From: Nostoc carneum NIES-2107 | GTDB lineage: Bacteria; Cyanobacteriota; Cyanobacteriia; Cyanobacteriales; Nostocaceae | Direction of reading: 5' to 3' | DNA: 64,000 nt | Assembly (NCBI GenBank): GCA_002368155.1 | Contig: AP018180.1 | Coordinates: 992,001-1,056,000 of the forward strand | Shown: positions 41,787-43,829 of the stretch, one piece after another | Position numbering within the stretch: the first letter of the stretch is position 1 | Layout: every line of letters starts with the position of its first letter | Notes under the pieces: model-generated | Databases searched by the model: none | Told to the model about the DNA's origin: nothing | Seen by the model: the letters and a program-made list of their open reading frames with translations, nothing else | Program-made: the position numbers and the translations under genes

Positions 41787-43829
41787 CTAAACAATTTCTT
41801 TTTGGAGAGAGTGAATTTTGCTAACTAATTCTTGACGAGCAGAAGCTTTGAGTAGATATCGAGAGATAAACCATCCTACATAACTAATACCAATCAACTC
41901 AAAAACGAATGGCAGTAATGGAATCTCATTGATTGCATTTAATAAAGCTATAACTAGCTTCACTGTAATTAGTACAGCAATCATCAAGACGATACCGAGA
42001 ATTAGTGGCTGGTTTTGAGAAGAAAATTTAGCTATGTATTGAGGTAATTGTTTTAAAATTCCCCAAACTTTTCTGCTAACTAGCTGCCATTGAGATAATT
42101 GTAGTTTAGTTGGCGATGTCTGAGTTTCTAGTATTAAAGTTTCATCGCCTGCTCCCACATCGTCTAATGTCATATCCACAGATTTTGCTGATTGTACTTC
42201 GTTATCCATAAATCTCCTATTTTCTTCACTGACAAGAGTTCTGAGTCCTAAATTCCAGCCTTTAACTTCATGTGTAGGGAGAAATGAAGAGTTAGCCACA
42301 AGAATATTTCTATCTACACAAAGGCTTTGATGAGCAGGTGTTTCCACAACCACTTGGTCTGTAGTTGAGATATTGCTTGTTGTCTCAACTACAGGCCTTT
42401 CCTCGGCTTTGACATCCTCAGAGAATAAAAACTTCTTGGTTTCATCATCGCGGATATCAATACCAGCCAAGTTCATCAAAGGAGAGTAAATGGCATTGTA
42501 TAAGTCACGTGCCATATTCACCGCACCTTCAAATCCCATGTATGGCCCATTGTGGTAACCATGACCGTTGATGTATGGTAAGTGCAATTTCTTGACTAAT
42601 GCACCCACCCGTGGGCCAGTCAACACTACATCGGGACGAATCATCTCTAGAACTTCAAAAAATTCTAGTTCATTACCATCATCAATATAGATTGTGCCTT
42701 CTTGACCTCTGGCAATCACTTTCTCAAAGTCTTCTTGGTGTCCAAACTTGGAAGACATGGATACTACTTGCATTCCTAAGTCATCTTCCAATGCTTTTGT
42801 CCAGTGCCATAGTCTGGGGCCTCCTGTCCAAATACAGACCTTTTTGCCTTTGAGTCTTTCTTTATACCAATTCATTCTGTCTTGGTATTTGGCGACTTCT
42901 TCAGCAATCACAGCTTCGGCTCTGTCTTCAATGCCAAAGAAAGCACCGATTTTCCGTAATGCTTCTTGACAATAGTCAAAGCCCCAAGTGTCTACGTCCA
43001 TCCGGGGAATGCCGTATCTTTTCTTGAGTTCGTTGGCAATATAACCAGCCGAACGCGCACAGTTGGTCACGTTGAGTTGCGCTCTGTGCATTCCTCTGAG
43101 CGCGTCATAAGTACCGTTCCCTGTAAAGTGGGCGATGATTTGCACGCCCATTTTTTCCATGTACCTTTCTAGTACAAAGGTGTCACCTTGGATGTTGTAG
43201 TCGCCGATGACGTTGATGGTGTAAGGAGAGGTGATTTCTGGTTCAAATGTCCCAACTTTCTCGTTAATCCAGGCGATGTTTAAGACGTGGTGTCCTTTGG
43301 ATTGGCTCACCCCAGCAAATCCGGGACATTCTACACAGAAGATATCGACATCACCGAGTTCTTTTTGAGCACTTTTGACTACTGCTCTGATGTCATCACC
43401 AATCAAGGCGGTGGCGCAGGTGGTGTAGACAATCATCCGTTTGATGTCGGGAAATTCAGCAAAGGCTTCCAAGATAGACTTTTTGAGTTGCTTTTCACCA
43501 CCGAAGACGATGTGTGACTCTTTCATGTCTGATGACCAGACATATTTGAGTTGAAAGTGTCCGTTGTCGCTGGGATAGCGTTTGGTGTGCCAGGTGTCGT
43601 AGGCGCAGCCAATGGGGCCGTGAATCATTTGAATGGTGTCTTTGAGTACACCACCAATTACGAGTTTCGCGCCGCAATAGCTACAGCCTCTTTCTGAGAG
43701 TGAGCCAGGTATGGTTTCGATGTTCGATAGTGGTAAGAATTGGGTGGTGTCTTCGCCAAATTCTTTGATATAAACGTGCTTTTCCCGTTCGGGAATTGTT
43801 TCGTCGCATTTCAATAGTTTCAATGGCAT
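41787..43829 (-). CDS. VnfD-CAAD: vanadium nitrogenase alpha subunit fused to a thylakoid-anchoring CAAD domain
   Basis: A 680-residue protein. Residues 1-464 are the VnfD of 14875-16671 with two differences only (Lys24 to Phe, and an Ile to Met before HGPIGC). All P-cluster Cys and the cofactor ligands Cys257 and His423 are kept, as are the start and AGGAG site. After DDET the VnfG domain is absent. Instead there is a polar linker of about 110 residues, then from about 578 a CAAD domain: an amphipathic stretch (QLPQYIAKF), helix 1 (about 608-630), NAINEIPLL, helix 2 (about 636-660) and [15 protein letters not shown] domains anchor aminoacyl-tRNA synthetases to cyanobacterial thylakoids and are related to CURT1. 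The product should therefore be a membrane-tethered VnfD. I know of no described nitrogenase of this kind. Confidence 0.92.

Follow-up and report, generated by a model that had tools for sequence, protein, structure and literature searches.

Nitrogenase is generally regarded as a soluble enzyme. What, then, might a nitrogenase alpha subunit do with a membrane tail? The question is raised by vnfD-CAAD, a gene of Nostoc carneum NIES-2107 that joins the vanadium nitrogenase protein VnfD to a CAAD domain and lies in a stretch of 64,000 nucleotides analysed here as a whole (the window).

The VnfD-CAAD protein and its canonical counterpart

The gene occupies positions 41787-43829 of the window on the minus strand, where the frame runs through 680 codons and a stop without internal interruption, and a Shine-Dalgarno-like AGGAG precedes its ATG. 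Among Pfam profiles, PF00148 was found at residues 49-447 (E 1e-87) and PF14159, the CAAD domain, at residues 597-680 (E 5.4e-26), the latter with 90.7 bits against a gathering cut-off of 30.7 and spanning positions 1-84 of the 85 in the profile. The NCBIfam equivalog TIGR01860 (VNFD) scored 1010.9 bits, well over the curated cut-off of 823.1, and PF03139 (VnfG) gave no match in the 680-residue protein when searched up to E 1. A sequence-only reading of this DNA had proposed a CAAD tail, the lack of VnfG in the gene and the retention of all metal ligands, and each of these points was borne out.

The VnfD half comprises residues 1-464 (42438-43829, minus strand). Residues 1-463 align without gaps to a solved VnfD, 5n6y chain A, with identical numbering, so that the ligand numbers given in the sequence-only reading hold; Cys49, Cys75, Cys138, Cys257 and His423, which we take to be the cluster ligands and which fit the 5n6y numbering, are all present. 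It is followed by a polar linker delimited by alignment, residues 465-596 (42042-42437, minus strand), whose length varies among relatives, and by the CAAD domain, residues 597-680 (41790-42041, minus strand), which was placed by the PF14159 match, hydropathy and a low-confidence model. Hydropathy finds a strong membrane helix at about residues 607-633 and a weaker one at about 636-656, making the membrane tail that had been proposed likely, and at a threshold of 1.6 finds none in residues 1-560. The AlphaFold2 model, computed from a 19-row alignment of the window protein with 18 of 24 prepared sequences, has a mean pLDDT of 55, too poor for fold searches; at that low confidence it places long helices at 576-605, 607-633 and 639-679 and leaves the linker, residues 470-575, mostly as coil with one short helix at 535-545. 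The sequence thus shows an intact VnfD core, followed by a linker that looks flexible and by a CAAD domain in which two membrane helices are probable.

Giving a soluble enzyme a CAAD membrane tail has a precedent in the CAAD-bearing aminoacyl-tRNA synthetases, such as the ValRS of Anabaena PCC 7120. CAAD brings ValRS to thylakoids, a targeting reported for LeuRS as well, and ValRS concentrates at the poles of mature heterocysts (PMC4893482). CURT1, which curves thylakoid membranes in chloroplasts (PMC4893482), and the stand-alone CAAD proteins belong to the same domain family but carry no enzyme domain. The genome of the window encodes three short CAAD proteins, besides VnfD-CAAD and a 1011-residue CAAD frame that is presumably ValRS.

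The earlier proposal that VnfG had been swapped out is true only of this one gene. About 25 kb away, and missed by that reading, lie intact vnfDG, vnfK, vnfE and vnfN (14875-21732, plus strand). The canonical vnfDG fusion (14875-16671, plus strand) encodes 598 residues of VnfD and VnfG (PF00148, and PF03139 at E 3.6e-38); vnfK (17104-18495, plus strand) is the sole VnfK match of the genome at E 1e-100; and vnfE and vnfN (18632-21732, plus strand), family matches below the equivalog cut-offs, are named by position, their order being taken from A. variabilis (PMC4284476). The VnfD halves of vnfDG and vnfD-CAAD are identical at 1383 of 1431 bp (97%), and the DNA match begins about 40 bp before the ATG, runs to the end of VnfD and stops there. 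Compared with the VnfDG fusion of Anabaena variabilis and other cyanobacteria, VnfD-CAAD has a nearly identical VnfD half, and at the same junction, after about residue 464, it continues into a linker with CAAD rather than into VnfG.

Every one of the 12 genomes in which VnfD-CAAD was found has one VnfK at E 1e-100 (that of G265 scoring just under the curated cut-off) and one VnfG, so that VnfD-CAAD has neither a beta nor a delta subunit of its own. The organism has not lost VnfG, as these single VnfG matches and the complete fusion in the window show, and a dedicated second VnfK was sought in the same 12 genomes and not found at E 1e-100. With a single VnfK per genome, sharing it would be the simplest route to an active protein.

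Several features of the wider vnf region may be recorded here. In G471 vnfDG is split over two frames (L052, 8406-10432) and vnfD-CAAD is intact; this genome is a single contig, and a sequencing error is possible. At Nostoc vnfDG loci (L037, L048, L041 and others) the VnfD-VnfG linker is expanded by PQVQPQAKE-type repeats, the L037 frame reaching 783 residues, and VnfD-CAAD linkers likewise grow by in-frame repeats, the Brasilonema protein reaching 896 residues. Extra nifE-like, nifN-like and nifX genes adjoin vnfH in the window (5266-8189 and 10472-12584), besides vnfE and vnfN, which suggests a second cofactor-assembly scaffold in the vnf region. Elsewhere in the same genome (G000:C1:1917209-1978255) a NifD-like gene lies in two pieces 60 kb apart, an arrangement that resembles the known nifD excision element.

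Distribution and concerted evolution

A search of 217 Nostocaceae genomes, scoring five candidates per genome, found a VnfD-type match (E 1e-120 or better) in 22 of them, with 34 matches in total. When the frames of these matches were read, the architecture looked for was present in at least 12 of the 22 VnfD-bearing genomes, spread over five genus codes: the window's genome (G000), G395, G396, G428 (Fischerella), G405 (Brasilonema), G528, G265 (UHCC 0926), G467 (210A), G471, G472 (C052), G483 and G489. This is a lower bound, because only five candidates were scored per genome; a thirteenth copy lies on a plasmid of Nostoc sp. C057, and in the other ten genomes, many of them drafts, no VnfD-CAAD was seen among the candidates scored. 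An open frame for this fusion in 12 genomes and on the C057 plasmid, several times on megabase contigs, shows that it is no assembly join, the artefact that the sequence-only reading had kept in view. A CAAD model built from the VnfD-CAAD tails was run over 80 loci kept from 110 relatives, and its four matches were all cyanobacterial; among these 80 loci, CAAD on VnfD was not found outside cyanobacteria.

All five ligands are kept in 12 of the 13 VnfD-CAAD sequences. The exception, from G528 (L051, plus coordinates 6269-7939), has an in-frame deletion of residues ~31-163 that removes three P-cluster cysteines and leaves CAAD intact, which fits either a non-catalytic role or decay in that genome. 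Residues that would mark the VnfD half of the CAAD type were also looked for, and no column in an alignment of 33 sequences separates the two kinds of VnfD.

The architecture itself is not new. Whereas the sequence-only reading knew of no described membrane-anchored nitrogenase, a VnfD duplicate with a C-terminal CAAD domain (pfam14159) was reported in the lichen Nostoc 210A, 213 and 232 in 2018 (Gagunashvili & Andresson 2018, PMC5987646). The layout is the same, a near-complete VnfD with pfam14159 at the carboxy end in a genome that also has a normal vnf cluster, and the 210A gene (L069) matches the window protein along all of residues 1-680, its best segment reaching 69%. The window copy differs in belonging to another genus code, common to G395, in having a different linker, and in sitting in a rearranged cluster with cydAB. 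The passage of the 2018 report that describes the duplicate is silent on conversion, inversion and a shared promoter, the main texts of PMC6645180 and PMC12416817 do not contain the term CAAD, and in one open-access library we found neither an experimental follow-up of the report nor a paper joining nitrogenase, heterocyst, immunogold and honeycomb. What is new here is the wider range, the concerted evolution, the single VnfK, the shared upstream dyad and the exchanged upstream regions. Annotation may be one reason why the fusion is overlooked: for two plasmids, those of Nostoc sp. C052 and C057, the gene table, which omits pseudogenes, has a CAAD protein of just 135 residues (L146, 21621-22028; L147, 21480-21887) at an open VnfD-CAAD frame and gives no protein for the VnfD part.

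Nine genomes have both copies in full, and in eight of them the closest DNA relative of the VnfD half in vnfD-CAAD is the vnfDG of that same genome, Fischerella (G428) being the exception. Identity between the paired halves ranges from 85.1% in Fischerella to 99.93% in UHCC 0926 and 100% in 210A. In the VnfD tree, whose branches carry no support values, seven of the nine pairs are sisters, the G396 copies are neighbours and not sisters, and the Fischerella copies stand apart; table and tree comprise 31 of the 33 sequences, without the internally deleted CAAD copy of G528 and the VnfDG of G384, which has a duplicated stretch with an unknown residue. In C052 the two copies show no difference through the first 900 bp, nor over at least 120 bp upstream, and differ thereafter, a patchiness that fits conversion tracts. 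The VnfD half of VnfD-CAAD thus evolves in concert with that of VnfDG, a pattern best explained by gene conversion.

The tail has a different history, as is seen between the window and G396, where dS is 0.30 in the VnfD half of the CAAD copy and 0.03 in the CAAD part. VnfD-CAAD tails group together (support 67/99; 73% of 200 bootstrap trees) in a tree of the 13 tails and 18 of 20 non-VnfD CAAD matches from six of the 12 genomes, a weak G405 match (L172) and a stop-broken G395 match (L174) being set aside, and most VnfD-CAAD rows have the linker motif EVQ..KSxDxT in common. Because the tails group and linker motifs are shared, repeated independent fusion in each genome was judged a less likely cause of the pairing of paralogues by genome than a single fusion with later conversion, and common descent of the CAAD tails is likely.

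Selection on both parts of the protein is purifying. In the window the two VnfD copies differ by 35 synonymous and two nonsynonymous codons of 452 (dN/dS 0.044), and for the CAAD part dN/dS lies between 0 and 0.47 in 21 Nostoc pairs, is 0.21 between the window and G395, and is 0.61, on few changes, between the window and G396. These values bear on the prospect that vnfD-CAAD is a duplication by-product with little or no function, open mainly through conversion from vnfDG. Conversion does account for an intact VnfD half, and the ten genomes in which no copy was seen (five candidates scored in each, many drafts) and the internally deleted copy of G528 would fit as well; it cannot protect the linker and CAAD, yet these are open in 13 of 13 copies across five genus codes, and dN/dS of the CAAD part is below 1 in every computed pair, the 0.61 above being the weakest. 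We consider such a by-product improbable.

Constraint on the VnfD half is somewhat weaker in the CAAD copy than in VnfDG. Over six pairs, changes assigned to the CAAD copy number 26 nonsynonymous and 85 synonymous, against 10 and 82 in VnfDG (Fisher p 0.026), in rows that are few and related. The count used six of the nine pairs, the three omitted having four or fewer differing codons each, and 180 codons of unclear branch (14 nonsynonymous, 166 synonymous) were set aside; Fischerella supplies most of the signal, with 17 nonsynonymous and 38 synonymous changes in the CAAD copy and 4 and 36 in VnfDG. Weaker constraint of this kind could be expected if VnfD-CAAD were a membrane-held assembly, storage or regulatory form, binding VnfK, VnfEN-made cofactor or VnfH without turning over N2. 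The loss of P-cluster cysteines with CAAD kept in G528 points the same way, as does the absence of delta from VnfD-CAAD, since the delta subunit may help to deliver cofactor (PMC5850330). The five ligands retained in 12 of 13 copies, and the conversion that holds the VnfD half close to VnfDG, speak against it, and we regard such a non-catalytic form as possible, though doubtful.

Upstream regions and neighbouring genes

A 20-bp dyad, ATATACAGAACTGTCTATAT, lies at 44017-44036 (no strand assigned), 207 bp upstream of the vnfD-CAAD ATG, as a candidate operator, and matches at 19 of 20 positions a dyad at 14558-14577 (likewise unstranded), 317 bp upstream of the vnfDG ATG. With up to three mismatches allowed, its 18-bp core occurs twice in the 64 kb, each time upstream of a VnfD gene; 0.08 matches would be expected. 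Dyads of at least 16/20 occur within 400 bp upstream of 9 of 13 vnfD-CAAD and 17 of 20 vnfDG genes, mostly near 200 bp, counts that are not independent because the motif was taken from the window and the upstream region is itself converted in some Nostoc pairs; the maximum in 300 shuffled stretches was 15/20. Upstream of vnfD-CAAD in G428, G405, G265 and G528 the best match is below 16/20, and a second, looser dyad pattern gave three matches against 4.1 expected by chance.

In A. variabilis the ava4025 promoter drives vnfDG, molybdenum represses it through VnfR1 and VnfR2, expression is heterocyst-specific, and the ava4025 product resembles the periplasmic part of molybdate transporters (PMC4284476). 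The dyad is termed here a putative VnfR site. The window encodes a VnfR1-type regulator (33051-34202, minus strand; HTH and PBP-like), named by its position relative to the vup genes as in PMC4284476, and a VnfR2-type regulator (2420-3616, plus strand), upstream of vnfH and also named by position.

Directly upstream of vnfD-CAAD in the window lies a gene for a ModA-like protein (44430-45221, minus strand), judged by family and position a likely ava4025 homologue, and upstream of vnfDG lies one for a ribbon-helix-helix (RHH) and TOBE protein (13865-14344, plus strand), possibly a molybdate-sensing vnf regulator. This is the reverse of the arrangement in related genomes. The ModA-like gene directly precedes vnfDG in G395, G396 and G528, and also in G495, G502 and G529, in which no CAAD copy was seen, and the RHH-TOBE gene stands upstream of vnfD-CAAD in G395 and G396; in G428 and G405 the ModA-like gene is farther upstream of vnfDG, past nifE-like and nifX genes. 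DNA alignment shows window 13745-16265, the vnfDG upstream region with its VnfD half, to be collinear with the G396 vnfD-CAAD locus, and window 42433-45280 to be collinear with the G396 vnfDG locus. A second case is found within Nostoc, where the whole stretch between the two VnfD arms is inverted in G489 relative to G472, and G471, G467, G265 and C057 agree with G472 in having a nifH-like gene beside vnfD-CAAD. The upstream regions of vnfDG and vnfD-CAAD have therefore been exchanged in two lineages, of which the window is one.

Inversions are to be expected from the long inverted repeats that VnfD arms form. In a further reading the VnfD halves would serve mainly as recombination arms, an inversion exchanging the two upstream regions and so setting the alpha subunit made from each promoter. 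The arms are inverted on one contig in G000, G467, G471, G472, G265 and G489, and in both lineages with the exchanged state (window against G396, G489 against G472) the alignments break at them. Any long inverted repeat recombines, however; the differences were seen between species only, with no mixed states in one culture; and the copies are direct repeats in G395, G396 and G428. The G396 copies lie about 136 kb apart in direct orientation, and those of the window are inverted and separated by about 25 kb; the two states therefore differ by more than one rearrangement, so that the window's is not one simple inversion of that in G396. A flip may also change little, the dyad being present in both upstream regions, and a main role as recombination arms strikes us as very unlikely. 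We would give as little credence to a fuller scheme, an invertible locus in which conversion-matched VnfD arms flip the segment and swap the promoters of the VnfG-bearing and membrane-tethered alpha subunits, so that a filament sets the share held at the heterocyst membrane.

Downstream of vnfD-CAAD, on the same strand, are genes of a bd-type quinol oxidase, cydB (37186-38238, minus strand; PF02322) and cydA (39181-40515, minus strand). Between vnfD-CAAD and cydA lies a transposase gene (40436-41491, minus strand; DDE_3 and HTH_33), which we take to be of the IS630 type. Over 39181-41491 the insertion has cut off the cydA N-terminus, the profile matching only from position 48, and since G396 has the missing first 47 profile positions the bd oxidase of the window strain is probably inactive. 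In G396 and G528 cydA and cydB directly follow vnfD-CAAD on the same strand. coxBAC-type genes occur in the vnfD-CAAD clusters of G428, G405, G472, G467 and C057, with a partial match in G265, and near vnfD-CAAD in the stretches read of G395, G471, G483 and G489 no cox genes were found. Terminal-oxidase genes are often neighbours of vnfD-CAAD, but not of this gene only: G495, in which no VnfD-CAAD was seen, has cox genes near its vnfDG. A second nitrogenase iron protein, nifH-like (36121-36945, minus strand; TIGR01287, 407.7 bits against a cut-off of 394.35), is encoded nearby, and at most loci read, whether or not CAAD is present, such a second gene is found close to a VnfD copy.

A proposed tethered alpha subunit sharing VnfK

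The reading that we favour, at roughly even confidence, is that VnfD-CAAD is a working, membrane-tethered alternative alpha subunit, held where oxygen is consumed and using the same VnfK as VnfDG, the two alpha subunits possibly occurring together in mixed tetramers. Three published observations incline us to it: the localisation of ValRS by CAAD, the honeycomb membranes next to heterocyst septa, which are rich in respiratory enzymes (PMC6616624), and the cofactor-deficient VFe protein, an alpha-beta2 trimer without delta (PMC5850330). This trimer suggests that a VnfK dimer can take up alpha subunits one at a time.

VnfD-CAAD would be made together with VnfDG, in heterocysts and under molybdenum scarcity, as the same upstream dyad and the molybdenum-related genes alongside suggest. 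It would then bind the only VnfK available, in one of two assemblies: a (VnfD-CAAD)2(VnfK)2 core, or a mixed tetramer that includes one VnfDG and with it one delta subunit. The two CAAD helices, with both ends cytoplasmic, would anchor the enzyme to internal membranes in the manner known for ValRS, close to a supply of ATP and reductant and to the respiratory oxidases that consume oxygen. Gene conversion with vnfDG would keep the VnfD half able to work with VnfK, VnfH and the delivery of FeV-cofactor.

For a tethered alpha subunit speak the ligands kept in 12 of 13 copies, purifying selection, the one VnfK, own-genome pairing in eight of nine genomes, the dyad, the cydAB and cox neighbours, ValRS-CAAD and the alpha-beta2 trimer; against it stand the G528 deletion, the excess of nonsynonymous changes, the missing delta, the non-specific cox link and a dyad below 16/20 in four genomes.

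It is natural to ask how nitrogenase in heterocysts stays near ATP, reductant and oxygen scavenging. With its familiar kind of membrane tail, this conserved alpha subunit allows a direct test of how nitrogen fixation is organised in space. Its range of five genus codes, its concerted evolution with vnfDG, the lone VnfK and the upstream exchange make VnfD-CAAD testable in culture-collection strains.
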